Assembly (NCBI RefSeq): GCF_020804225.1
Contig: NZ_WJBI01000010.1
Location: 113,441-149,071, forward strand
Reading direction: 5' to 3'
DNA length: 35,631 nt
Origin: Methanosarcina sp. DH2
GTDB taxonomy: Archaea > Halobacteriota > Methanosarcinia > Methanosarcinales > Methanosarcinaceae
Made by a program: the position numbers and the translations under genes. Under the pieces are notes generated by a model. The model ran no database searches. It was not told where the DNA came from and worked only from the letters and a program-made list of their open reading frames with translations. This document shows, one piece after another, positions 17,596 through 34,006 of this stretch (its first letter is position 1; each line of letters begins with the position of its first letter).

Positions 17596-18837
17596 TCAGA
17601 TCGTCCTCGGATCAGTGATTTCGCCAGTCAGTGCAGAGGCTGCTGCGGTTGCAGGGGATGCAAGATAAATAAAGCCGTCTTTTCCCATCCTGCCTTTAAA
17701 GTTTCTGTTTGCTGTCGAAACGCAGACTTCTCCTTCTCCGAGCACGCCCTGATGAGCTCCAAGACATGGCCCGCAGCCAGGGGTCGCAAGCGTCACACCG
17801 GCTTTTAGTAGTGTTTCCATTGTCCCGTTCTCGATTGCTGAAAGAAGAGTCGAGCGGGATGCGGGGATCACGATTGTCCTGACCGCAACCTTTTTTCCTT
17901 TAAGGACTGCTGCTGCTACCTCGAGGTCCTCAAGCCTTCCGTTGGTGCACGTTCCTATAAAGACCTGGTCTATGTGAGTGCCTTCTACTTCAGTTACAGG
18001 CTTTACATTATCCACCTGATGCGGGCAGGCAACCTGAGGTTCGATATCTCCGGCATCGTATGTGAACTCTTGCAGATAAGCAGCGTCGGGATCGGCATAG
18101 ACAGGCTCATAAGGAGCAGCTGCCCTGTTTTTCAGGAAATCAAAGGTCTTTTCGTCAGGAGGGACAATCCCGGTCTTTGCTCCCATCTCAATCGCCATAT
18201 TGCAGAGTGTCATCCTGCCTGCGACTGAAAGCTCGCTGATAGCCTGCCCGTAAAACTCAACTGCTTTGTAGGTCGCACCGGCAATTCCTGTCTTTCCTAT
18301 CAGGTAAAGGGTAAGGTCCTTTGCATAAACACCTGTCTCAAGGCTGCCTTCAACCGTCATCCTGAAGCTTTCAGGCACTTTAAACCAGAGTTTTCCCGTG
18401 GCAAAGATTTCAGCCATATCGGTTGCTCCAACTCCTGTTGCAAAAGCGCCGAAAGCCCCGTAAGTACAGGAATGAGAGTCAGCCCCGACAACCAGCTTTC
18501 CGGGTAATGCAAAGCCGTTTTCCGGAAGCACCTGGTGGCAGATTCCTTCCCCGACCTCATAGAAGTTGGGTATTCCCTGCTCCCGTACCCATTCCCTTAT
18601 CTCCTTCTGAAGGGTAGCTGAAGTCTCGGTGTTCGCAGGGGCTATATGGTCAAAAGGAATCACGATTTTTGAAGGGTCCCAGACCTTTTCCAGTTTCATT
18701 TCCTTAAAAGCATTTACTGCCAGCACTGACGTGCCATCATGCGCCATTGCATAGTCCACATCTGCCAGCACAAAATCATTAGCCTTTGCCTCTTTTCCCG
18801 CTGCCCGGGAGAAGATTTTTTCGCTGATCGTTCCCAA
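17596..18837 (-). CDS. Aconitase-family large subunit (3-isopropylmalate dehydratase or homoaconitase type)
   Basis: 413 residues from TTG 18837, fixed by a strong AAAGGAGG ribosome site 7 bases upstream. It dehydrates and rehydrates a 2- or 3-hydroxy tricarboxylate-like substrate, using a 4Fe-4S cluster held by Cys297 (IGTCTNGR), Cys355 and Cys358 (TPGCGPCLG). FDHIAPANT (62-70) and [20 protein letters not shown] (118-137) are the other active-site signatures. In archaea this family covers leucine synthesis (LeuC) and the homoaconitase of the coenzyme B pathway (HacA); the two cannot be told apart safely by eye. The partner small subunit is not in the window, so it is encoded elsewhere, as is common in methanogens. 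Confidence 0.93.
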
Positions 18838-19280
18838 AAGTAAGCCTCCTTTCCTAGAATAAAGTGATACTGAATAAAATGCACGCTAAAGAATTAAGGT
18901 TTCAGAACTCACTATAACGAAATTTACCATTCAGTTTAATTAGCTTAAAATTAAATTATTTATCTAATATTTTTGATTTAATTCCTGTAAACTTTATTCT
19001 TTGGCATGAAAGTACTTGAAAGAACTTTCATATTTTTGTGCCTGTAATTCGAAGAGTTCCATGTTCGTTTTTTGTAATTTTCATATTTTGTCTTAAATCT
19101 CTTTTCGTTCCTATTTTCCCGACAAAACTCCAAGGTTTAGCATATGGTTAAGCCCTTTGGAAGCCCCCTTATCTTGCAAAAACTTTAAGAGTGTTTCCAG
19201 TAATGGTCGTGACAAAAACTATGCATTTGGATTTTGTTCTGGTAATAGATACATTCAGCTTGTTCAAACTATAAATAAAT
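18838..19280. other. Gene-free spacer upstream of the aconitase-family gene
   Basis: AT-rich. It holds an interrupted hairpin at 19008-19029 (GAAAGTACTT against AAGAACTTTC). A short plus frame (19157-19357) looks like a shadow of the decayed minus-strand module to its right. No intact immunity-type gene was found here for the orphan Rhs tip. Confidence 0.45.
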
Positions 19281-20433
19281 TCAGCTTTCAGGCTCGCAGT
19301 ATTCAGCATGACCAACTAGCTGTTCACGCTTTTCCAGCTGTTCTCCAATTTCCTTAACCTTACTACTTTCAGGCCAGTATTTCTCAGCAAATCTCAAGCA
19401 TTTTTTTTGCAGTTTCAAAATTAAATTTTTTAATGGAATATTAGCCAAGTCAATAAATTCATATGTGTATGGAGTTATCTCGACTTTGCAAAAAGTGATA
19501 AAAACATTTTCCGCCGATTCTCTATCTTTAAACTATCCGTCATAAATTTTTTTGCTTTTTTCAGCCTTAAAAACCAGCTCACAATCTTTACATATTTTTA
19601 TACCAGTCTCTCTTACAGTATTATCAACAGTTTTATCATTTTTTAACTCGTCTTTTTCTCTGCATCCACCGTCTTATCCAGCAGCTTGAATAAATCTCCA
19701 ACGTTATCTGCATGAGTAACTGTTTCCTCCAGTGCCTGAACTCCAAGCCTTCCACCTGTAACACCAGGCAAAGCCAGACATGCAACATCAGTAGTAAGAC
19801 CTATGTAAGTCCATTTATCAGCGTTACCGGTACGGATATCGTTAATATCCATTGCAAGGAAAGCTAAATCAATGGCAGTTTCAATATAATGCCCGCTCGG
19901 ATCAGTATATTTCACCGGATTATTCAGTGCATAAGCATACCTGTTCAACGCCTGCGGATTATACGGGTCAGGAAGCATCGTATCCGGCTGAACGAAAATC
20001 CTGTACTCAGGCGAATAATACCTTGCGCCGTAGTACATCAGCCCTGTATCAGCATCATTTTCCTGCCCTGTAAACCCGTATTTCTCAAGACCGCCTGACC
20101 TCACCTGACCGTATGGGAAATAATCGGTGCATTCGACCACAAGGCCGTTCTCGTCAACCATCAGGGAAGTGCTGCCGAGGTGGTCGGAGAGGTACCACTT
20201 AATGCCCTCGGATGTTTGTTTGGCTACGCGTTCATCGTCGCGGAAGAAGTAGCTGGTGGACGTGCCGTTATCGATTTCGTAGAACTTATTGATGTAGTAA
20301 GTGAATTCACCATCAGAGTTCTGTTTCTTGATTCTCTGGCCGTTTGCATCGTACCAGTACTTTTCCACAAGAGAATTGTTAGCGGAGTAATGGACCTCAC
20401 TTAACTGGTTGGCATCGTTGTAAATCGATTATC
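19281..20433 (-). pseudogene. Orphan Rhs-tip cassette: truncated Rhs core fused to a different, decayed C-terminal domain
   Basis: From 20433 down to about 19654 the minus strand repeats the Rhs core end of the large gene to its right (22140-21372) with very few changes. It begins inside the YD shell (YNDANQLSE) just after a stop, with no promoter or signal peptide. It keeps the DPSGHYIE boundary and the next 75 residues. The frame then shifts near 19648-19655, where a run of A differs by one or two bases. The sequence continues in another frame as a tip unlike the first: RETGIKICKDCELVFKAEK, a TAG at 19533-19535, then ITPYTYEFIDLANIPLKNLI, and TGA at 19281-19283. The intact core part is the 241-residue frame 19643-20368. 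This is the arrangement of bacterial rhs orphan tips. The tip fold is not recognised. Confidence 0.8.
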
Positions 20434-20472
20434 ATTAGAAAAGTAAATCGTGGTTTGAGAACCATAATTGGT

Positions 20473-20600
20473 GAGCTTATCCCAAAAGCCATTTCACTTC
20501 ATTCATTAACAAGTTCCAGATTATTTTCAAGATCAGGAACTTGATCGATTATTTGGGACATAAGATTCGAGAAGCGAATTCTGAGTTTTAGGATGAGCTC
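20473..20600. mobile_element. MITE-like element, copy 1 (128 bp)
   Basis: Bounded by inverted ends GAGCTTATCCCAAAA (left) and TTTTAGGATGAGCTC (right). It has no coding capacity. A related 130-bp element with better-conserved ends lies at 28686-28815. This copy sits between the orphan Rhs cassette and the stop of the immunity-like gene. Confidence 0.7.
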
Positions 20601-20614
20601 GAGATTTATTAAAA

Positions 20615-21004
20615 TTACTTATTTGCTTTTAGCTCCTCTAAATCAAGTTCATCTCTCAAAAAAGAAAGGAAGATTTCCACCTTTTTAGGGGTGAGTTCTT
20701 TTCCTTTTTCATCTATTTCTTCCAGCTTATCCAATATGTATCCAATTTTATCTTGGTATTTTTCACAATACCTATACCACTCAGAGAATAAAATAAAATT
20801 TGCCCAAGTAACTACATCGGCATGAGAAATCTCATTACTTTTGTACTTCTCCAATAGATTGATTATATGCTCTTTACATACCTCCACGGACCAGTAATAT
20901 TCCGGAGGAGCGAAATTATATGTAGCTTCATCCAATTTGTTAATTGTGATTTCCAAATCCCTATACATCTCAAGAATCTTCAAATCAATTGTAATAATAC
21001 TCAC
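20615..21004 (-). CDS. Putative immunity protein of the Rhs toxin
   Basis: 129 residues starting at GTG 21004, which overlaps the TGA of the Rhs gene in a GTGA arrangement; the GAAGGGGTGAG context serves as ribosome site. It is soluble, mostly helical and acidic (LDKLEEIDEKGKEL, LRDELDLEELKANK), as many immunity proteins are. It contains a Trp/Tyr-rich centre (EYYWSVEVCKEHI, ANFILFSEWYRYCEKY). I do not recognise the fold family. Its role is inferred from position: small genes directly overlapping the 3' end of an Rhs gene nearly always encode the protein that neutralises the toxin tip. The overlap suggests coupled translation so that protection accompanies the toxin. Confidence 0.7.
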   Translation of the reverse strand: MSIITIDLKILEMYRDLEITINKLDEATYNFAPPEYYWSVEVCKEHIINLLEKYKSNEISHADVVTWANFILFSEWYRYCEKYQDKIGYILDKLEEIDEKGKELTPKKVEIFLSFLRDELDLEELKANK

Positions 21005-24000
21005 CCCTTCTTGATTTTGTTGTGAACTAAATTTCCTTTGGGGTCAAAGGTTTCTTTCCAGACTTTAGTGGTAATTCCTTCGGAGGATATTTCCTTGTAG
21101 TATACTGCATAAGAACCGGGGACATTTCCTGGTTTCGTTGCAGTGACTAAATAACTTCCATCACCCCCTGATTTGATTATAAAGTTAGTATAGTCATTTT
21201 TTCCTGCTAAAAAACGATTAATGTTAGTTCTTACCTTAGGATCTAAATCCAGATTATCTAACGATTCTCGTGTTTTTTCAAGATTGTCTGCTTTTACAAA
21301 ATACTTTGACGTATCTAGTGCATCATCAACGTGATTAACAGCTTGCCCTGCATCAACCCCATTATCTACTTTCTTCTCTATACCCGCCGTCTTATCCAGC
21401 AGCTTGAATAAATCTCCAACGTTATCTGCATGAGTAACTGTTTCCTCCAGTGCCTGAACTCCAAGCCTTCCACCTGTAACACCAGGCAAAGCCAGACATG
21501 CAACATCAGTAGTAAGACCTATGTAAGTCCATTTATCAGCATTTCCAGTACGGATGTCGTTAATGTCCATTGCAAGGAACGCTACATCAATGGCACTTTC
21601 AATATAATGCCCACTTGGATCAGTATACTTAACCGGGTTGTTCAGAGCATAAGCATATCTGTTCAATGCCTGTGGATTATACGGATCAGGAAGCATCGTA
21701 TCCGGCTGAACAAAAATACTGTACTCAGGTGAATAATACCTTGCACCATAGTACATTAGCCCTGTATCGACATCATTCTCCTGACCTGTAAACCCGTATT
21801 TCTCCAGACCACCTGACCGAACCTGACCGTATGGGAAATAATCGGTGCGTTCGACGTCAAGTCCGTTCTCGTCAACCATCAGGGAAGTGCTGCCGAGGTG
21901 GTCGGAGAGGTACCACTTCATGCCCTCGGATGTTTGTTTGGCTACGCGTTCGTTGTCGCGGAAGAAGTAGCTGGTGGATGTGCCGTTGTCAATTTCGTAG
22001 AAATTGTTGATATAGTAAGTGAATTCACCATCAGAGTTCTGTTTCTTGATTCTCTGGCCGTTTGCATCGTACCAGTATTTTTCCACAAGGGAATTGTTAG
22101 TCGAGTAACGGATCTCACTTAACTGGTTGGCATCATTAAAGATGTAGATGAAATCCTCATCGTCGATAAGGTTTCCGTTTGCATCATAGTCTAGATCGTT
22201 TGTATCATAACCCAGGTTGCCTACACTATAAGTAACAGGAGCATGGAAAGGTGTTAGAGAGTATTCATAAAGTGCAGTTTCGACAATAAAAGGAACGGGT
22301 CCATATATAGCATGGTTGATCTCGATACGGCCATACTGGTCGTAAGTGAAGTCTATCATGTCGTTCGGTATGCCATTGACCGACATATCTGCGCTGACTA
22401 GCCTGTCAAGGTCGTCATATTCGTAGGTTTTTATGGAATTTTGGGTATTGTCTGCTATCTCGAGGACATTGCCGACATTATCGAAATCGTAGTTGAGGTC
22501 CTGGAGGCCTGCGGAATAGATTCTGTTAAGCAGAAGTTTTTGACTGTCGTAGGTGTAAGTTGTGACCACGCCGTTCGAATATTCCTTTCTTGTTAGCTGG
22601 TTCCTTGCGTTGTAATCAAGGTCGTCGATCACGCCGTCAACGCTTTCAAGAAGGGTCTGCGAATTGTATGTCAAGCGAACACTTTCGCCGTTCGGATAGG
22701 AAATCCCTGTAACCCTGTCCAAGTTGTCATAATCATATGACGTAGTGTAACTTGCACCGTCAATGGTTACAGTCTCGCTCTCTACCCTGTAGCGAAGGTC
22801 ATAGTCGTAACCTGACGATGCAGTTTCTTTTGATACCCTCGAAAGCGTACCGTTAAACTCAAGATCATATGTGAAACTTACATCCTCATCGTTAGGATAA
22901 TCGATTGCAGTAACTCTGTTCAGATCATCATAACTGAGGATTGTTGAAACTCCCCGTGCATCGGTCTGATTTAACAGGTTACCGTTCAGGTCATATTCAT
23001 AGGTCCAGCTTCCCATGTCAGGGTCGTTCATTGCAACTTTTCTGCCAAGGGAATCATAGGTAAAGCAAACACTTGGTGGAGCCTGAGGGTTGTTACAGCC
23101 TGGAGTAATCTCTATTAGATTATTCCGGGCATCGTAACTGTAGGATGTAATGTAAGTTTCATTCCCGTTGAACTCATAGACCTTGATAATATTCCCGAAG
23201 ACATCACTTGTCAGTGTTTTGTTAACTCCATTCTGATTGGTTATCGTGGTGTTACTAAGCTTGTAATGATACCTCAGGGTAGTGCCATCAGTATTGGTGA
23301 TGACCGTTGGTCGTCCGACCGTATCATATTCGTAGGTTATGGATAAGCCGGATTGATCTGAATAATGCGGGACTTCAGCACTTTCTACAAGACCCAGTTC
23401 ATTATATGCAGTATTCTGGATAATCCAGCTGTCTTCACCTTCATACTTTTTCTGGATTAGTTGTCCGAAGCCGTCATATGAATCAAAGGAATCAAACGTG
23501 GAATAATATAGAGATTTGGAAATTGTGTAAGTTGGTTCAGATGATGCATATTGACGGACATAAACATAATCGACATGAGAAGTTGATCTGATACCTCTAA
23601 AACCTATATAATCTTCTGTAGTATGCGCAGTGGTGTCATTGATATAATTAGTCCAGGTTCTACCATCGTCACTTCCATAAGCTTTTATGCTCATTCCTGA
23701 GAAATCCACTCTTAAGAAATGCCATGTATCATAGTTTGTTGGATTTGAAGCAGGTATATCGACATTTCCCCAATCAACATATGCATAGTCATGGTTATCC
23801 AATCTAGACAAGAAAGCAATACTATGGCTATCATCCCAATTATTACCATCACCACGAACAAAGATGCCTAATTCATCATCATATCCGTCACTTGCTATTT
23901 TAATTTTCGAAACGAGAACACCATCAACTATTCCATTTGTTGCTAATCTGTTCCAAATGTATGGTGATAAATTATGCACAGCATTTCCATCTGACACTCT

Positions 24001-25836
24001 CCAGTTGGAGTCGATTGAAACCCATTTTGAAGTATTAAATGAAGTTCCACTAAAATCATCAAAAAAGTCAAAAACTGCATTACCGTTTGATGCTGAAGGC
24101 ACACCAGAGTTCCCATAGTACATCTTGATAGTTGTACCAGATGTTCCATCTATCTCAGGAACTTTGACCCAGACTTTTGCTGAGATGGAATCCGTTTTCT
24201 CTTCAATCCAATACGGGAGAAGAAGACCATTTTCATCAATAAAGCGCAGATCATCAAAATCCGATTGCATCTCAAGTTCATAAGCAATATCAAAACTCAC
24301 CTGGTAATCAGTCAGAGTGCCATCTGCAGATGGGGAAATTGTGATAGTCTTGTAATTTTTGAATATGGAACCATTAATGATGTAATTGTTCTCTTCACTA
24401 CCATATTCCTTTGTTTTGGTTAATAGTTTTTCAGGTGCTACACCATCCTGATAGTACGTGTACACCATAGATGGAGAATCAGGCGTGTCGTCGACCTTCA
24501 GTATCTTCGATATCCTTTGCAAGTCGTCATAGATGTATTCTGTAGAAACGCCGTTGCTGTCTGTAGTTTTCGTTATCCTGCCAAAGTCATTGTATTTATA
24601 CAATTCTTTTTGACCCAGAGCGTTTTCAATGGAAACAGGGTATACATGGTTTCCATCATACTTTATGTTCTCCAAAGACCCTTTTGGATTTGTAATTTGT
24701 ACAATGTTTCCATAGTCATCATAATCGTACAAAACAGCGGGGTTATCTCCCATATTGTTCCATGACACTGTTTTTGTGAGCTGCCCTTTGCTGATGTTAC
24801 TGTTATCATTTGTTCCGTCATAATAGTACCATGATTCGCCCTTCTTTATCTGATCTGAATCTTCCAGCCATTCATGCGTTTTTTTCCCGAGGACCCACGG
24901 ACCTTCTGCATTGGCATATTCAAAATAAAGATATTTTTCATCCCCTGCAGTATTCACATCACCATAATCTGTTATGGAAAGCGGGTTCCCGTAATCATCA
25001 TAGTCGTCATATTCGGTAAGAGACGACCAGCCGGCTGAACTGGTTGGGTTCTGTACAAGCCCGTCGAACTGTGTTTTAGATTCCGAGTTCAGCAAAATTA
25101 GGTTGACATCGAGGTATATTCCCTGAGCAGTATATTCAATGTCTGAAGAACTGTAAAGGCTCCCGTCCTTGTCCCATACTTCAGTATGATTTTCGATACC
25201 CTTCAGTACATCGTCCTGATGGAAAAAGTGTTTTACTATCGAGTACTCGTTTTCAACAGTTACCTCGCCAAATCCTCTGAATTCGATTTCCTCTGGTGGA
25301 TTAAAATACTGCATTCCGTTTTTATAGGTGTAATCTGTTGTTGAAACCACGCTTCCGGTGCCTGTAATCCCATTATCTCTTATCACCCTGCTTGTGACCC
25401 ACATACTCATGGTCAAATCTGAAATGCCATCATTTCCAGTGTTATTGAAAATCGTGGAAGGTTCATATTTTATGGTCGTGCTTCCACCTGTTGGATGCTG
25501 TATTTTTTTGAGCAGACCCGGAGTTTTATAATCTTCTGTGCTATCAGCGTTAGTGTTTGTCCAAGTACCACCATAAGCCCCTTGGATAATATCTGTCAGC
25601 CCATCCCCATTCAAATCTGCAAACCGTACTCCCAAGTCTGAGCTATAGCTTGCGATCAGTGTAGGAGGATTCCATGAATTGTCCCTTTCCCAGCCACTAC
25701 CAGTGCTTATCCAGGCATCGTAAGTGTATCCTACATTGTTATAAATGCTCTTAAGAATATCTGCCAAACCATCTCCATTAACATCCACTAAGACTACACC
25801 GTATTTAATGAGTTGAGCGATACTGGGGATCCCCAT
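21001..25836 (-). CDS. Rhs/Tc-toxin-like protein, C-terminal fragment (YD repeats, Rhs core, toxin tip)
   Basis: 1611 codons, the larger part of a gene split by a frameshift at 25794-25836. Its nominal ATG 25836 has no ribosome site and lies within a VCBS repeat, so it is not a true start. Order: two VCBS repeats (VDVNGDGL, ADLNGDGL), a TcdB-like middle part, first YD repeats (about 275-470), a DUF2341 domain and lectin-like fold (about 490-770, MYYGNSGVPSASNG), many YD repeats (about 780-1290), then the Rhs core ending in TDPSGHYIE (about 1325-1410). The last 200 residues are the variable tip, with the end pattern PGSYAVYYKE and FDPKGNLVHNK, which I associate with bacterial polymorphic-toxin tips. 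YD repeats build a hollow shell that encloses the tip. Transcription is towards the immunity gene. Confidence 0.9.
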   Translation of the reverse strand: MGIPSIAQLIKYGVVLVDVNGDGLADILKSIYNNVGYTYDAWISTGSGWERDNSWNPPTLIASYSSDLGVRFADLNGDGLTDIIQGAYGGTWTNTNADSTEDYKTPGLLKKIQHPTGGSTTIKYEPSTIFNNTGNDGISDLTMSMWVTSRVIRDNGITGTGSVVSTTDYTYKNGMQYFNPPEEIEFRGFGEVTVENEYSIVKHFFHQDDVLKGIENHTEVWDKDGSLYSSSDIEYTAQGIYLDVNLILLNSESKTQFDGLVQNPTSSAGWSSLTEYDDYDDYGNPLSITDYGDVNTAGDEKYLYFEYANAEGPWVLGKKTHEWLEDSDQIKKGESWYYYDGTNDNSNISKGQLTKTVSWNNMGDNPAVLYDYDDYGNIVQITNPKGSLENIKYDGNHVYPVSIENALGQKELYKYNDFGRITKTTDSNGVSTEYIYDDLQRISKILKVDDTPDSPSMVYTYYQDGVAPEKLLTKTKEYGSEENNYIINGSIFKNYKTITISPSADGTLTDYQVSFDIAYELEMQSDFDDLRFIDENGLLLPYWIEEKTDSISAKVWVKVPEIDGTSGTTIKMYYGNSGVPSASNGNAVFDFFDDFSGTSFNTSKWVSIDSNWRVSDGNAVHNLSPYIWNRLATNGIVDGVLVSKIKIASDGYDDELGIFVRGDGNNWDDSHSIAFLSRLDNHDYAYVDWGNVDIPASNPTNYDTWHFLRVDFSGMSIKAYGSDDGRTWTNYINDTTAHTTEDYIGFRGIRSTSHVDYVYVRQYASSEPTYTISKSLYYSTFDSFDSYDGFGQLIQKKYEGEDSWIIQNTAYNELGLVESAEVPHYSDQSGLSITYEYDTVGRPTVITNTDGTTLRYHYKLSNTTITNQNGVNKTLTSDVFGNIIKVYEFNGNETYITSYSYDARNNLIEITPGCNNPQAPPSVCFTYDSLGRKVAMNDPDMGSWTYEYDLNGNLLNQTDARGVSTILSYDDLNRVTAIDYPNDEDVSFTYDLEFNGTLSRVSKETASSGYDYDLRYRVESETVTIDGASYTTSYDYDNLDRVTGISYPNGESVRLTYNSQTLLESVDGVIDDLDYNARNQLTRKEYSNGVVTTYTYDSQKLLLNRIYSAGLQDLNYDFDNVGNVLEIADNTQNSIKTYEYDDLDRLVSADMSVNGIPNDMIDFTYDQYGRIEINHAIYGPVPFIVETALYEYSLTPFHAPVTYSVGNLGYDTNDLDYDANGNLIDDEDFIYIFNDANQLSEIRYSTNNSLVEKYWYDANGQRIKKQNSDGEFTYYINNFYEIDNGTSTSYFFRDNERVAKQTSEGMKWYLSDHLGSTSLMVDENGLDVERTDYFPYGQVRSGGLEKYGFTGQENDVDTGLMYYGARYYSPEYSIFVQPDTMLPDPYNPQALNRYAYALNNPVKYTDPSGHYIESAIDVAFLAMDINDIRTGNADKWTYIGLTTDVACLALPGVTGGRLGVQALEETVTHADNVGDLFKLLDKTAGIEKKVDNGVDAGQAVNHVDDALDTSKYFVKADNLEKTRESLDNLDLDPKVRTNINRFLAGKNDYTNFIIKSGGDGSYLVTATKPGNVPGSYAVYYKEISSEGITTKVWKETFDPKGNLVHNKIKKG

Positions 25837-27647
25837 GAATTATCATGTTCCCATCCACTACCATTATTTAACCAAGCAGAGCCTTCCTTAACGAGATCAA
25901 CCAATCCATCACCATTGATGTCAGCGAGAAGTATTCCTTGATCAAACCCAGTATCTACAAAGTAAGTAGGAGGGTTCCATGAATTATCCTGTCTCCAACC
26001 CGCGCCGGTATTGATATAGGCATCATATTGTTCTGTTCCGACATATCTGTAGCCCTTAATTATGTCAACTAATCCATCTCCGTTAACATCTGCAATTCTT
26101 ACACCTTGGTCACTTGAATAACCAAAATATAGAGGAGGTGCCCACGAGTTGTTTTGTTCCCAACCGGTGCCGTTATTCAACCAAGCAGAGGAAATATCAA
26201 TACTGTGTTGGATAATATCAACCAATCCATCACCATTAACATCTGCAAGGCGTGCGCCTGCATCTTCAGTATAATCTCTGAAACATGTTGGTGTTGCCCA
26301 GGAACTATTCAGTTCCCAGCTATCTCCGGTATTTATCCAGGTCGAACATCTAACTCGATTAAGATCATCTACATAACCCTCAAGAATATCTTCCAATCCG
26401 TCGCCATTAACATCTACAAACCGTATTCCCTTGTCTCTTCCGCTCGTGGAAACTGATGTACTCCATAAACTGCTTTCTTGCCACCCTCCGGTAAGAGAGT
26501 TATATTCAAAAATAGTGGGCGGGAACTCCGTGCTGTTTAGCCCTGTCTTTGTAATAGATTTTAGATATGATTTTGACTGTTGTGATTCATACTCAAGATT
26601 GTATTTCCAAAGAACAGTTTCATCGTTACGAACAGTAATGCTGGATATTAAGCTTTTTTCGCTAATTTTGTTACCATATTCATAGCCAGTGAAAGAGCGT
26701 GGTTTTTCCGTAAACTCAAAATTAATAACTGCATGGTTATCGTTATAGGTTATGCTGTCAAGATATGTGCTTCCTATTTCTCCACTTGCCGGGTTTTCAA
26801 AATATGTGTATCTAATCTGATTACCATTGATATCCTCTATCAGATCGAGCCACCATTTACTGACATAATTTCTTGATTCAATGGAATTTCTTTGTTCAGA
26901 ATCACTATTATAACCAAAACGATATTTAGTTCCGTCCGGCATTTTAAGGATCCAGTAATCCCCAAAAGAATTGCTACCAGTTGTACTTTTTTCTATTTTC
27001 ATAAAACTTTCAATTTCGCTGTGATATGAGTTGTCACCCTCCACATAAACGAGTTTGTATGTTGAGCCATCCAAAATAAGAATAAATCTATCATCACTGA
27101 TGTTTTCAGGAGTATATCTGGTATCCCTAATGATGCAGTTCTCATTCAATGACCAACCCATCCCCAGTGAACCGTATGTTCCTCTTGAGCCCATAAAACT
27201 AGAATAGGTAAGAGAAACCTTTGGGCCTAAGCCAGTTCTTCCTCTTAAAGTTTCAATTGGATAAGAATATACGAAAGAACCAGTAAACAAACTTGTGTCA
27301 AAGTAATCGTTTTCATTCTCCAAGGTGGGATTGAGATATGCTTTTGCATTCCCTAAAGGTTCGATATCGTCTTCAGAAACTGCGCTTTCAGGTACCACAG
27401 TATCTGTAGGGATATTTTCAGAATTATCGTCCACGCTTTCGCTGTCAATAACAGAAACTATTTCGCTCGTTTTTTCCTCATCTATTATGTTTTCATTATT
27501 TTCTTCATATGAATCAGAATCCGCTTGTAAGCTCTCAGAACTTCCATCCGGACTTGTTTCTACGTTTTCAAGACAATATGCATTCGGTGTAAGCAATATG
27601 ATTAGCATCAAAATAGAAATCAGTCTTTTATTATATATTGGAGACAT
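25794..27647 (-). CDS. Rhs/Tc-toxin-like protein, N-terminal fragment (signal peptide, SpvB-like domain, VCBS repeats)
   Basis: About 617 residues from ATG 27647, preceded by GGTGG at about 27662-27666; a TTG at 27668 is in frame but lies before that site. The signal peptide (SPIYNKRLISILMLIILLTPNAYC) implies export. A Ser/Glu/Asp-rich linker (about 26-95) follows. Then comes an SpvB/TcB-like domain (about 100-400) with FTGSFVYSYPIETLRGRTGLGPKVSLTYSS, read across its first strands. Four VCBS/FG-GAP repeats (ADVNGDGLVDI type, each with DNSW) lie at about 405-617. It ends prematurely at TAG 25794-25796, while the next repeat continues in the -1 frame as the C-terminal fragment. Repaired, the two parts make a single protein of about 2,215 residues. 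Confidence 0.88.
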   Translation of the reverse strand: MSPIYNKRLISILMLIILLTPNAYCLENVETSPDGSSESLQADSDSYEENNENIIDEEKTSEIVSVIDSESVDDNSENIPTDTVVPESAVSEDDIEPLGNAKAYLNPTLENENDYFDTSLFTGSFVYSYPIETLRGRTGLGPKVSLTYSSFMGSRGTYGSLGMGWSLNENCIIRDTRYTPENISDDRFILILDGSTYKLVYVEGDNSYHSEIESFMKIEKSTTGSNSFGDYWILKMPDGTKYRFGYNSDSEQRNSIESRNYVSKWWLDLIEDINGNQIRYTYFENPASGEIGSTYLDSITYNDNHAVINFEFTEKPRSFTGYEYGNKISEKSLISSITVRNDETVLWKYNLEYESQQSKSYLKSITKTGLNSTEFPPTIFEYNSLTGGWQESSLWSTSVSTSGRDKGIRFVDVNGDGLEDILEGYVDDLNRVRCSTWINTGDSWELNSSWATPTCFRDYTEDAGARLADVNGDGLVDIIQHSIDISSAWLNNGTGWEQNNSWAPPLYFGYSSDQGVRIADVNGDGLVDIIKGYRYVGTEQYDAYINTGAGWRQDNSWNPPTYFVDTGFDQGILLADINGDGLVDLVKEGSAWLNNGSGWEHDNSWGSPVSLNSLNTV

Positions 27648-28347
27648 TTTTATAATAGTGACCACCAATTAATTCATTTATATATCTGGAGTTATTGTAC
27701 AAATTTTATATAGTATATTGTATAGTTTTGAAATTTTTAACGATATTTGATTATTTTAAAAAATATATTACTATTAAAAAAGGCATACATATATAAAAAA
27801 TTAAGGTCTATAAAGAAACACTGTTAAAATAAATTAAGTATGTTGATCCTGCATTTTCCTTCCTTTTGATTGTAAAAGGATAAATCACACTATATCTCGC
27901 ATTTAAAAAGCTATATAAATGAATTTTTGTTCATTTGTATTCGGTTAAGGATCTTGAGCTGCGGATCTCGATTTCGACGGAAAAACTCAAACCCAAATGT
28001 TTAGTGTTTAAATTGAAATCGATATCAGATTCCAGTTTTGCATTTGATGAATAATTTAACAAATTTTATGAAAATCAATGCAAGTGATAATGATTTTTCC
28101 TTAACCGATGACCAATGAATTTTTGTTATAAGTCGTAAAAATATTTTTTAATAAGTAAGATGCTTTTGAAGAGAAGGACAGACTTGCAGGTGTAATGTAG
28201 AGATTTTGAGTGACTGGTACCTTCACAGACGAGAAGATTGTTCAAAATGTTTTGCAGAGGCTGGAAGAGTCATTTATACTGGACTAATTAGATTCTTACC
28301 GGGATTCTGAAGTAAAACTAGTGCATCGATTCCATATATCCTCAATA

Positions 28348-28404
28348 AACCACGGATAAACACAGATGATTTCAACTCGTGCTTATCCGTGTCCATCTGT
28401 GGTT
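28348..28404. repeat. 57-bp palindromic repeat (hairpin)
   Basis: AACCACGGATAAACACAGAT pairs imperfectly with the right arm (TTATCCGTGTCCATCTGTGGTT, 28383-28404). It resembles the CCACAGATG/CACGGAT palindromes scattered through many bacterial and archaeal genomes. It is non-coding. Confidence 0.7.
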
Positions 28405-28461
28405 CTTTTATGGAAAACCCATTGACCTGTGTTAATTTTAAAGTCCAATTTTATTCCCATA

Positions 28462-28623
28462 ATTTGGAATCGAAGCACTAGGGAATACTACAAAAATTAC
28501 TGACATCACAAGACATGACCACTTCGCAAAAGGCATTAACATAGAAGAGCAATTCAGAGACAACATCATACAGGAAAAGCAAATAAAAGAGAAAACAAAA
28601 AATAAGAAATTATCACTAGAATA
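28462..28623 (+). pseudogene. Possible 3' remnant of an unknown gene
   Basis: A plus frame reads GIEALGNTTKITDITRHDHF, then about 34 more residues rich in Lys, Gln and Glu, ending at TAG. It follows a TAA with no start codon. The composition is protein-like. The flanking palindrome and MITE suggest the rest was lost by rearrangement. The family is unknown to me. Confidence 0.35.
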
Positions 28624-28685
28624 GAGCAAAAGATATTGAAAATTTGAAAAATAATTTTACAGTGGTTTAGTCGAAGATTATAAAG

Positions 28686-28815
28686 GAGCTCATCCCAAAA
28701 CCGATTTTATTTTCACATCAACAAGAATTTCAGAATTATTTTCCTAATCAGAAGATCGATTGATTATTCCAGATTCGAGATTTAGGGACTTAATCCTGAG
28801 TTTTGGGATCAGCTC
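28686..28815. mobile_element. MITE-like element, copy 2 (130 bp)
   Basis: Ends GAGCTCATCCCAAAAC (left) and GTTTTGGGATCAGCTC (with one mismatch) form a terminal inverted repeat of about 16 bp. The interior shares scattered words with the copy at 20473-20600 (ATTATTTTC, GATCGATT, ATTCGAGA). It encodes no protein and would need a transposase from elsewhere. Confidence 0.72.
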
Positions 28816-29309
28816 AAGAAGAAATAAACAAATGGGTAAGAATGAGTTAAAATTTTAGTGTCAGGGTGCAATTCGAACGCACGAATTCATATTTTTTCAT
28901 TATGTTAAAAAAATATTTTTTTCAACAATAAATATATTACCTTTTAACCTAAAATAACGAAATATAAATACTTAATGGATTTGTGAGATAAATAGCCGCT
29001 TTTGAAAAGATTATGCCTCCCTTGAAAGCGATAAAATCCCAAAATGAGGAAAAACAGTAATGGTTGATCCTGAAGTAGAACGAGGATACCGATGAAATAA
29101 ATTACAGACTCATTAATATCTTTTCTGGTTATACGAAATAATCGTTCATTATTAAAGAAAGCGCTGGAAAAATTTTACATATATTAAATATCATCCCCCA
29201 CCTTATAAAATTAATTTATTAAATATTAATTGTTATATACCACCGGACCAATAATTAAACGGATAATGCTACCAAAGTGTTATCAAAATATTAATGTGAG
29301 GGGAGAATT
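28816..29309. other. Spacer upstream of the propeller protein gene
   Basis: AT-rich, with no convincing frame apart from the tRNA-like fragment. The right end carries the GGGGAG ribosome site (about 29300-29305) for GTG 29310. Confidence 0.4.
28858..28888 (-). other. tRNA 3'-end-like fragment (T-arm)
   Basis: The minus strand reads GTGCG-TTCGAAT-TGCAC, a five-pair stem with a canonical seven-base T-loop (28866-28882), then CCTGACA as a possible acceptor strand. No matching rest of a tRNA is next to it. It could be a scar from integration at a tRNA gene, or chance. Confidence 0.3.
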
Positions 29310-30581
29310 GTGAAAATCAAGGGTTTTTTGTTTATTTATTGTTTTTTAGCCCTGCTTTTGATTGTAGGGAGTACATCATCAGCTGGTGCGATACCAGCAG
29401 AGCAGTGGAACAGAACTTTCGGAAACATAGAATTTGACTGTGGATATTCTGCATGGCAGACTCAGGATGGAGGATATGTAGTGGCAGGAGAAACCATGGT
29501 TAATTACGATGAAGCTAATGCTGATGCCCTCTTGATGAAACTGGACTCAAACGGAACTGAAGAATGGAACAGGACTTTTGGAGGCTTGGCATATGATTGT
29601 GCATACTCCGTCCAGGAAGCTGAAGACGGAGGCTATGTACTTGCAGGTTATCTTGAAGAGGGAGAAAAAATCGAAGAAAGAGACTCTGACGCCTGGTTGA
29701 TCAAAACTGATTCTAACGGAACTGAAGAATGGAATAAAACATTTGGCGGTGAAAAAACAGACCGTGCATATTCTATCCAGAATACCGGAGACGGAGGATA
29801 CTTACTAGCAGGATATACAGAATCTTTCGGGGCAGGAGCATCTGATGCCTGGCTAATTAAAACTGACTCTAACGGAACCGAAGAATGGAATAAAACCTTC
29901 GGAGGAGTAAATGAGGACTATGCATCCTCTGTCAATCAGAGCAAAGATGGAGGATACGTAATAGCAGGATACACCAATTCTTCAGCCGGGAAAGATGAAG
30001 CATGGTTAATAAAAATTGACTCCAACGGAACCGAACAGTGGAATCAGACTTTTGGTGGGGAAGGTTATGATTATGCATACTCCGTCCAGGGACTCGATGA
30101 CGGAGGATACATACTGGCAGGAACTACAGAATCTTTCGGGGCTGGCGGAACTGATGGCTGGCTGATAAAAACTGACTCCAACGGAACCGAAGAATGGAAT
30201 AAAACCTTTGGCGGCACCTATGAAGACTATTTCTATTCAATTCAGAAAACCGCAGATGGAAGTTTTTTGCTTGCCGGCAGCACCCAGCCGAGCAGCAATT
30301 ATGACAATATCCAAGCCTGGCTAATTAAAACGGATTCTGACGGGAACAGAACGTTGAATATGAGTTTTGGCGGAGAAGATAATGACGCCATAATGTTTGC
30401 TCAGGAAACTCTTGATGGAGGACATATACTGGTAGGACGTACCTCCTCATATGGCACGGTTTCTGACATCTGGCTTATCAAAGTTGGCTCTGAGAAAGAT
30501 ATGATGGCCGAGATTGATAATAACATTACAACGGAGCTTGAAAATCTCACATCTGAGTTTGAAGATCTGATGTATGCATAA
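29310..30581 (+). CDS. Secreted seven-repeat (propeller-like) surface protein
   Basis: 423 residues from GTG 29310, set by GGGGAG just upstream. A signal peptide (KGFLFIYCFLALLLIVGSTSSAGA, about 4-27) is followed by seven repeats of about 50-58 residues. Each repeat runs: D-Y-A-Y-S-V-Q, DGGYVLAGYTES, DAWLIKTDSNGTEEWNKTFGG. The number and length fit a seven-bladed beta-propeller. The sixth and seventh repeats are more diverged. Nearly every repeat carries an NGT sequon at the same place, so the exported protein may be regularly glycosylated. A short acidic helix ends the protein; there is no membrane anchor or PGF-type sorting signal. The function is unknown, with a binding or surface role likely. 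It is monocistronic and followed by a strong terminator. Confidence 0.85.
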   Translation: MKIKGFLFIYCFLALLLIVGSTSSAGAIPAEQWNRTFGNIEFDCGYSAWQTQDGGYVVAGETMVNYDEANADALLMKLDSNGTEEWNRTFGGLAYDCAYSVQEAEDGGYVLAGYLEEGEKIEERDSDAWLIKTDSNGTEEWNKTFGGEKTDRAYSIQNTGDGGYLLAGYTESFGAGASDAWLIKTDSNGTEEWNKTFGGVNEDYASSVNQSKDGGYVIAGYTNSSAGKDEAWLIKIDSNGTEQWNQTFGGEGYDYAYSVQGLDDGGYILAGTTESFGAGGTDGWLIKTDSNGTEEWNKTFGGTYEDYFYSIQKTADGSFLLAGSTQPSSNYDNIQAWLIKTDSDGNRTLNMSFGGEDNDAIMFAQETLDGGHILVGRTSSYGTVSDIWLIKVGSEKDMMAEIDNNITTELENLTSEFEDLMYA

Positions 30582-31738: not shown

Positions 31739-31985
31739 CTACTGTGGATCATTAAGTTAAAGATTTCTTGCCCAGTCATTTGCCACCAGGATTCCAAATG
31801 GAGTGAAAGCGAAAAACACTTCTCACCCATCAAGCGAAGTTTTAAAAATACCCACGACTCATATTTATCGCAGCTTGCAGATGTAATAAAGCTCTTTTCC
31901 GGGCAGTATTTTCGGATCAAGCGGCCTGCTCATTCAATTTATCAGGGGAAGAGCGAGAAAATAAGTTTGTGACAGGGGATTTAAT

Positions 31986-32405
31986 ATGACGTCAAAATTG
32001 ATGGACTACTTTAACAAGCAACCGAGAATTGGGGTTCTCAGCACATCGAGTAAAGACGGAAAGGTAGATTCGGCTGTTTACGGTTCACCTCAGATGACCG
32101 ATGAAAAGACCGTTGTAATAGCAACGGGTAACAACCGTACTTTTTCAAATATCCAGGAGAACCCTTATGCGATGTTCCTGATAATGGAGCCAGGAACAGA
32201 TATTATGAGCTGGAAAGGGATCAGGGTTTATCTGAAAATGAAGGAATCTGCAACTTCCGGCGAGATGCTTGATATGATTAAAAGCCAGATCTCAAAAATA
32301 GCTGGCGAGGAAGCGGGAAAGATGATATATGCAACTGTCACTTTCGAGATTATTGAGCTGAGGCCTCTTGTTGATATGGGACAGGGCTGGGAGAAATCGA
32401 TCTGA
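31986..32405 (+). CDS. Pyridoxamine 5'-phosphate oxidase-like flavin-binding protein, paralogue A
   Basis: 139 residues from ATG 31986. It has a split-barrel fold pattern: KQPRIGVLSTSSKDGKVDSAVYGSP (first strands and turn), DEKTVVIATGNNRTFSNIQENPYAMFLIM (nucleotide/FMN-contact strands), then KGIRVYLKMKESATSGEM. The end, VTFEIIELRPLVDMGQGWEKSI, is shared exactly with the paralogue at 33495-33905. Members bind FMN or F420 or heme, and many small archaeal ones have unknown substrates. The two copies are about 80% identical and their upstream 80 bp are also alike. They flank a GNAT gene on the opposite strand. The C-terminal 20 residues are perfectly conserved, which suggests recent duplication or gene conversion. 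Confidence 0.82.
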   Translation: MTSKLMDYFNKQPRIGVLSTSSKDGKVDSAVYGSPQMTDEKTVVIATGNNRTFSNIQENPYAMFLIMEPGTDIMSWKGIRVYLKMKESATSGEMLDMIKSQISKIAGEEAGKMIYATVTFEIIELRPLVDMGQGWEKSI

Positions 32406-32454
32406 ATTTTCGGAAGTTATAGAGATAAAAATAACAAATCAAAATCAAAGTTGT

Positions 32455-33021: not shown

Positions 33022-33494
33022 ATCTCTCATTCCTAACTTCAAAAGTTAACAAGTTAGTGCAGATTTCAATAGAGTATAGACTTGAGAATGGTACGCTGAG
33101 AAACCTGCAAGCTACTTTTTGCCCGAAAAGACTCGTTTTGTATTCAATACCTTTCATTCTTACTCCTGTAACATTTGCTTTTAACAACTGAAACCACGAT
33201 AAACATAAAAGAAATATATTCTTTTCTTCCATATATGTAAATTTGTTTCGATTGAATACCTTTAGCTTATTCTTCATGGATTTTGGACATATTTTCATCC
33301 ATAGAGTCTCGAAGGTCTCTCGAGTATACAGATTATCAGAGTAAAAAGTTTTAAGCATACTTAAGACGATTATTATTGCAGCCTGAAGATTAATTATAGT
33401 TCTTTTCATGACAGTATTTTGTGACCAAGCAGCTTCGCAAACTCAACTCTTAAAGGAAAGAGCGCTAAAACAGGCTATTAGAAGAGGTTTAGAT
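33022..33494. other. Spacer between the GNAT gene and the second flavin-binding paralogue
   Basis: It contains a long minus frame (32984-33409) without a ribosome site or family resemblance, which I take as spurious. The right end (from 33412) repeats the upstream DNA of the first paralogue, including a CAGTATTTT word and a GGAAAGAGCGC / GGAAGAGCGA word. Confidence 0.5.
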
Positions 33495-33905
33495 ATGACG
33501 TCAAAACTGATGGACTACTTTAACAAGCAACCGAGAATTGGGATTCTCAGCACAGCGAGTAAAGATGGAAAGGTAGATTCAGCTATTTTCGGCTCACCCA
33601 ATATGATCGATGAAAAAACAGTCGTAGTTGCAACAGGGAAGAACCGCACGTTTGCAAACCTTCAGGAAAACCCTTACGCGATATACCTGATAATGGAACC
33701 AGATCCGGAATGGAAAGGGATCAGGGTTTATATGAAGATGAAGGAATCTGCAACTTCCGGGGAAATGCTTGATACGATTAAAAGCCAGATCACAAAAATG
33801 GCCGGAGAGGATTTTGCGCAGATGATGAATGCAACGGTTACCTTTGAGATTATTGAGCTGAGGCCTCTCGTTGATATGGGACAGGGCTGGGAGAAATCGA
33901 TCTGA
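33495..33905 (+). CDS. Pyridoxamine 5'-phosphate oxidase-like flavin-binding protein, paralogue B
   Basis: 136 residues from ATG 33495, preceded by GAGGTTT; the longer frame from 33408 adds an N-terminus that the paralogue lacks. It has the same fold pattern as the copy at 31986-32405: KQPRIGILSTASKDGKVDSA, DEKTVVVATGKNRTF, ENPYAIYLIMEP, then a conserved end. It differs by a 3-residue deletion after IMEP and by changes mostly at surface positions such as DFAQMMN for EAGKMIY. Both copies keep an intact frame, so both are probably used. No electron-transfer partner lies nearby. Confidence 0.82.
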   Translation: MTSKLMDYFNKQPRIGILSTASKDGKVDSAIFGSPNMIDEKTVVVATGKNRTFANLQENPYAIYLIMEPDPEWKGIRVYMKMKESATSGEMLDTIKSQITKMAGEDFAQMMNATVTFEIIELRPLVDMGQGWEKSI

Positions 33906-34006
33906 GTTTTCAGAAGTGATGTGAATCAAAATAAAAGATTAAAAAATCGGAATAAAAAGATCAAAAGAAAAAAAATAACCGGCTTAAATTTTAGAATGGG
34001 GATTAA

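Follow-up and report, generated by a model that had tools for sequence, protein, structure and literature searches.

A likely cassette scar beside an rhs gene of Methanosarcina sp. DH2, and signs of recombination through the Rhs core in the Methanosarcinaceae

Results

The rhs locus and its island

The window, by which we mean the whole stretch of 35,631 nucleotides analysed here (contig NZ_WJBI01000010.1 of Methanosarcina sp. DH2), contains an rhs locus whose features are collected in Table 1; genomes and loci are cited below by their G and L numbers. The main gene carries RHS/YD repeats and an Rhs-associated core (PF05593, TIGR01643 and TIGR03696). In this assembly it consists of two overlapping frames (overlap at 25794-25836) rather than one intact frame with an export signal, while 12 matches in other genomes of the family are single frames of 2121-2880 codons, the G001 counterpart being one of 2217 aa. 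The split may mean that the rhs locus is inactive here, or it may be a wrong base call.

Table 1 Features of the rhs locus and its surroundings, with window coordinates
Feature	Position	Strand	Evidence and remarks
Main rhs gene, first frame, 624 aa	25794..27668	-	SpvB and FG-GAP domains; signal-peptide-like start by eye
Main rhs gene, second frame, 1611 aa	21001..25836	-	TcdB_toxin_midN, DUF2341, RHS repeats, Rhs core, tip
C-terminal tip of the main gene, predicted toxin	21001..21336	-	51% identity with the tip of a silent G011 cassette; without Pfam family
Next gene, likely the immunity partner of the tip, 129 aa	20615..21004	-	Overlap with the stop codon of the toxin frame
MITE-like repeat, dispersed, lying between the 129-aa gene and the scar	20473..20604	-	Inverted ends of ~16 nt
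Core scar, 258 residues of Rhs core end and linker, tip absent behind	19652..20425	-	tblastn 94% over 258 residues; blastn 709/767; TIGR03696
Identical tract of 154 nt, equal to main gene 21387-21540, stops at tip boundary	19669..19822	-	Permutation p 0.0003
Remnant of PP2C-phosphatase-type gene (inter-domain region), out-of-frame join	19287..19658	-	tblastn E 4e-30 to G014 protein
Island with rhs locus, ~10 kb	18927..28953	.	Relatives lack it between these flanks
Aconitase-family gene (leuC-type by eye), island flank	17596..18837	-	PF00330 E 2e-108

The predicted tip is formed by the last 111 residues of the main gene, and a profile search found no known (Pfam) family in it. It occurs in 2 of the 111 genomes of the family and the gene that follows it in 7, five of which belong to the Methanolobus group and gave no match to the tip. 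Together, tip and next gene make up a silent cassette in G011 (Methanosarcina sp. 2.H.T.1A.6), whose next gene is 51% identical to that of the window. Both parts differ between loci and match together. Judging from its sequence and position, the gene at 20615-21004 is likely to be the immunity gene of the main tip; export, toxicity and immunity of the main rhs system are all predicted functions.

The locus forms an island at the leuC site of this genome, since the two island flanks lie side by side in relatives (6 of the 11 leuC loci examined, with a flank overlap of 11-13 nt in 5 of these 6). The match to the far flank is merely 30-39 nt long in relatives, and in G011 the gene beyond that flank (29339-30520) is present as well. 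By eye, the 10-nt word ATTTCGTTAT stands at both island ends in the printed flanks.

Several repeats are scattered over the window. The MITE-like repeat at 20473-20604 has eight matches in its own genome, itself included, and lies within the ~190 bp that separate the 129-aa gene from the core copy. A second MITE-like copy (28686-28819; ~135 bp, inverted ends) is 71% like the first, and the two bracket the rhs gene. A dispersed repeat of ~80 nt at 18993-19081 recurs in at least 19 of 30 Methanosarcina genomes, and a repeated gene pair (31934-32444 and 33443-33944) is 80-85% alike in DNA.

The duplicated core carries a tract identical to the main gene

Downstream of the main gene, the end of its Rhs core is present a second time. 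The copy (19653-20419, minus strand) aligns with the main gene without gaps at 709 of 767 bases (92%) in blastn and at 94% over 258 residues in tblastn, and its open frame of 261 codons contains TIGR03696 (Rhs_assc_core, E 2e-21), a duplication far beyond chance. This bears out the original prediction, in which some 250 residues were near-identical and the shared part extended about 75 residues beyond DPSGHYIE; the alignment proposed there as a check gave high identity, and homology breaks off sharply at both ends, on one side at the tip boundary. The copy had also been described as devoid of promoter, signal peptide and shell, of which the absence of the delivery part stands.

Identity between the two cores is uneven. 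In steps of 75 nt it ranges from 85 to 95% down to position 19823, then reaches 100% over 154 nt, and divergence sets in at the tip boundary right after this tract. Only 0.03% of 20,000 permutations gave a run as long, and the result held when third positions alone were used (p 0.00075). We compared region A (20419-19823) and region B (the identical tract, 19822-19669) separately. In region A the scar and the main gene are 91.1% identical; copies elsewhere are 77-91% identical to the main gene (at most 90% over at least 140 nt), 16 Methanosarcina copies are 83-92% identical to the scar, and one G011 cassette reaches 91.0% to the scar over 333 nt, so that a copy in another species is about as close to the scar as the main gene is. 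In region B the window pair is 100% identical, against 77-91% in 12 other copies. The divergence of region A combined with the identity of region B suggests that the two cores have long been separate and that only their tip-side end was equalised recently, which we consider likely on these alignments. We infer that the tract arose by gene conversion or crossing-over.

Strong constraint, or a recent plain duplication, would produce an identical tract with no recombination between the copies, and the tract does encode the conserved linker adjoining the tip. Constraint is however at odds with the third positions and with the differences of 9-23% that the other 12 copies show over this very stretch, while a recent duplication should have left the whole copy identical, yet the rest is at 91%. 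We consider this explanation improbable. The uneven identity with its 154-nt tract, like the gene at 20615-21004 and the split of the main gene, had no part in the original prediction.

The supposed tip is a remnant of an unrelated gene

The original prediction took the core copy for a silent cassette, with a frameshifted toxin tip that could replace the main tip through the shared core. The copy's position behind a full-length gene does recall bacterial loci, and such cassettes exist in relatives (see below). However, the ~370 bp behind the core (19658-19287) align to residues 349-515 of a 796-aa protein of G014, ahead of the PP2C_2 domain at 555-756; at the DNA level the two are 77-80% identical in two blocks, between which 108 nt of the G014 gene are absent. 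Short DNA blocks also match G003, G025, G027 and G029, and the G014 domain matches the same four genomes in frames of 412-936 codons, of which those of G029 and G027 look J-like at the start and PKD-like in their repeats; in one relative the neighbour gene is von Willebrand-like in look. Since the piece is thus part of large unrelated genes in five other Methanosarcina genomes, the very finding that had been named as fatal to a tip, we read it as an internal gene remnant.

The distribution of the piece agrees with this. When 77 aa of the supposed tip were searched in the 111 family genomes (E 0.001), only the window genome and G014 gave a match (57% in the latter, inside the 796-codon frame); G014 has no Rhs core match, and none of the 111 genomes shows the piece in an Rhs setting anywhere else. 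The frameshift and the TAG, which the original prediction took as signs of decay or of a need for repair, do not represent damage to a toxin tip: the core frame stops at 19643 because the remnant reads in another frame from the junction onward, and the remnant has one in-frame stop of its own.

The copy is therefore a core fragment of the same clade that lacks both a delivery part and a toxin tip of its own. No immunity gene was found behind it, and between the remnant frame (which ends at 19281) and the leuC frame there is no minus-strand frame of at least 60 codons; in the relatives' loci compared, this stretch matched only a dispersed repeat. No trace of a lost tip or immunity gene was detected behind the scar. 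That the copy is a silent cassette able to replace the main tip is consequently very unlikely.

Even less credible is an assembly or contig artefact: the assembly is a draft of 37 contigs, but the two cores differ at 54 of 752 sites and so are not one copy assembled twice, and the flanks agree with those of an island between two sites that adjoin each other in relatives. Least probable of all is that the PP2C-type piece is a genuine alternative tip, a non-toxin domain acquired by the Rhs protein, for although it begins within a few bases of the shared linker end, it is out of frame, interrupted by a stop, shortened relative to G014 and, among the 111 family genomes, confined to this one Rhs context.

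Tipless core scars are common in the family

An Rhs core was found in 11 of 30 genomes of the genus and in 33 of 111 of the family. The copies were counted in 27 loci from 18 of these 33 genomes, mostly those with the stronger matches (G005, G021, G026 and 12 further core-positive genomes stand outside the count), and core matches below 50% identity were dropped except in L040. Copies in a frame of more than 1000 codons were classed as full-length, shorter ones with at least 75 residues past the core as carrying a tip, and those with fewer as tipless. This mechanical count gave 55 copies, namely 10 full-length, 18 with a tip (a class to be read as mechanical, the L124 entry of G086 looking doubtful) and 27 without. 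Two of the 27 are void, one L038 copy having been counted twice and the last L037 copy being cut by the contig end, which leaves 25 tipless scars among 53 copies in 18 genomes. The tipless core scar is thus a common form.

The arrangement of the copies is regular. Full-length genes stand first in their stretch in all 10 cases, and in all mixed arrays, 9 of 9, the scars lie at the far end (8 of 8 if L037 is left out). The full-length gene is directly followed by a scar in 6 of 10 cases, as in the window, by a cassette in 2 and by neither in 2. Cassettes of core, tip and immunity gene follow full-length rhs genes in G001, a Methanosarcina, and in G089 of the Methanolobus group; in G001 the 2217-aa gene precedes three tip cassettes with their next genes and one scar. 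Some of the pairs resemble known toxins and their partners: in G001 the main tip has a Colicin D match and the gene after it an Imm64 match, and a G011 cassette matches Ribonuclease and its next gene Barstar.

Further core fragments were seen at other sites. The window's own genome (G000, contig C9) contains two more decayed ones, L039 (6520-6928) and L040 (7589-7979), and the small gene behind L040 has relatives next to core fragments in G007, G024 and G026. In Methanolobus psychrotolerans, transposase-like frames (by eye) follow a broken core fragment in L048 (4321-5360), and L118 represents the same place. Two scars, L035 (6993-7879) and L036 (8790-9236), lie at the same place in two genomes, each behind a gene that by eye resembles ribose-phosphate pyrophosphokinase, suggesting that scars may be inherited for long.

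Signs of tip exchange and core recombination within the family

Comparing tips with tips gave 14 matching pairs, one of them over merely 21 residues, and the next gene also matched in 13 of the 14, the exception being the 21-residue pair. Four tip families, which account for 4 of the 10 full-length genes, occur joined to a full-length gene in one genome and as silent cassettes elsewhere: that of the window (silent in G011), that of G091 (silent in G001), that of G090 (silent in G001 and G011) and that of G089 (silent in G074 and G090). The next gene alone brings in a fifth (G079 against G089 and G073), and a sixth is the Colicin D tip of G001, to which a broken remnant in G079 shows 70% identity over 61 residues.

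Recombination between cores was assessed in the 43 of 55 copies with at least 250 aligned positions, which form 725 pairs. Identical runs of at least 90 nt occur in 8 of 44 pairs from the same genome versus 1 of 681 between genomes, the latter being a G079 core piece 96.6% identical to M. psychrotolerans L048. Runs with p<0.005 over all sites (1000 permutations) number 10 of 44 within versus 16 of 681 between genomes, and those reaching this level over all sites and at third positions 7 of 44 versus 4 of 681; since the pairs share members and are not independent, Fisher values overstate this within-genome excess. A main gene and its first downstream copy could be compared for 4 of the 10 full-length genes, and three of these four pairs contain tracts (154, 276 and 174 nt) pointing to recombination between the main and downstream cores, the fourth having a run of 49 nt (p 0.009). 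We regard the long identical tracts within genomes as a sign of recombination through the core.

Discussion

The window holds a copy of the Rhs core end, 258 residues long, which runs out of frame into the decayed remains of a PP2C-type gene. The explanation we favour, with a probability of roughly three in four, is that this element is a scar left by a toxin-immunity cassette that was displaced and has lost its own tip. Incoming DNA carrying core, tip and immunity gene would recombine through the shared core, so that the incoming tip becomes the attached one and the old tip is pushed downstream; displaced copies would then decay from the tip side, while their cores keep exchanging with the main gene by homologous recombination. 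The window copy would have lost its tip and immunity gene through a deletion or an insertion that put the PP2C remains at the linker, and would now be usable solely as a substrate for recombination. Since the scar has left no trace of either lost part, we infer its former tip from the family alone. It could also derive from a bare core duplicate. A further point against our reading is that over the longer stretches of region A the scar (91.1%) is slightly closer to the main gene than are most copies from other species.

Displacement of this kind has been described in bacteria. Dissociated rhs tips and C-terminal displacement are reported in Enterobacteriaceae (Jackson 2009, PMC2935791), in loci where, as here, a full-length gene is followed by start-less core fragments of variable length, some degenerate. 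Unlike those described in the available text of that study, from which the word archaea is absent, the window copy keeps no tip and its host is an archaeon. In Salmonella, an orphan pair of rhs-CT and immunity gene is described as having been switched in over 522 bp of 95% identity (PMC3967940), a shared core comparable to the 767 nt at 92% seen here; the Salmonella orphan, however, has an active toxin and an immunity gene, neither of which was found in the window copy. This bacterial model of displacement and orphan switching accounts well for the family in Methanosarcinaceae.

Among archaea, polymorphic toxin cassettes of Methanosarcina acetivorans are already in print (Zhang 2012, PMC3482391), and these too are RHS-repeat toxins of the same genus. 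The parts of that paper available to us concern another genome than that of the window and contain neither an analysis of core recombination nor scars for archaea. The VARTIG modules of Thermococcales likewise involve a large archaeal gene whose C-terminal region is varied by recombination (PMC8416519), but unlike the window they are described with immunoglobulin domains and with exchange between species, none having been detected within loci. What is new here, then, is a tipless scar with a probable recent exchange tract, and evidence of recombination in archaea.

The original prediction had proposed tip switching in an archaeon on the strength of the window element, and this idea fares differently at the two levels: the element itself does not support it, but the gene family does, through its cassettes, its attached and silent tips and its tracts. 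On balance we think it somewhat probable that methanogenic archaea swap the tips of secreted Rhs proteins by homologous recombination through the core, and that silent cassettes are stored by age and worn down to distal scars, the window showing a fresh exchange tract that ends where the tip starts.

These results carry a caution: an Rhs core repeated next to an rhs gene does not have to be a toxin in reserve. They also offer sequence evidence in Archaea for a recombination step known from bacterial rhs loci, and they point to culturable methanogens, the Methanosarcina of G001 and Methanolobus, as places in which archaeal toxin switching could be tested.
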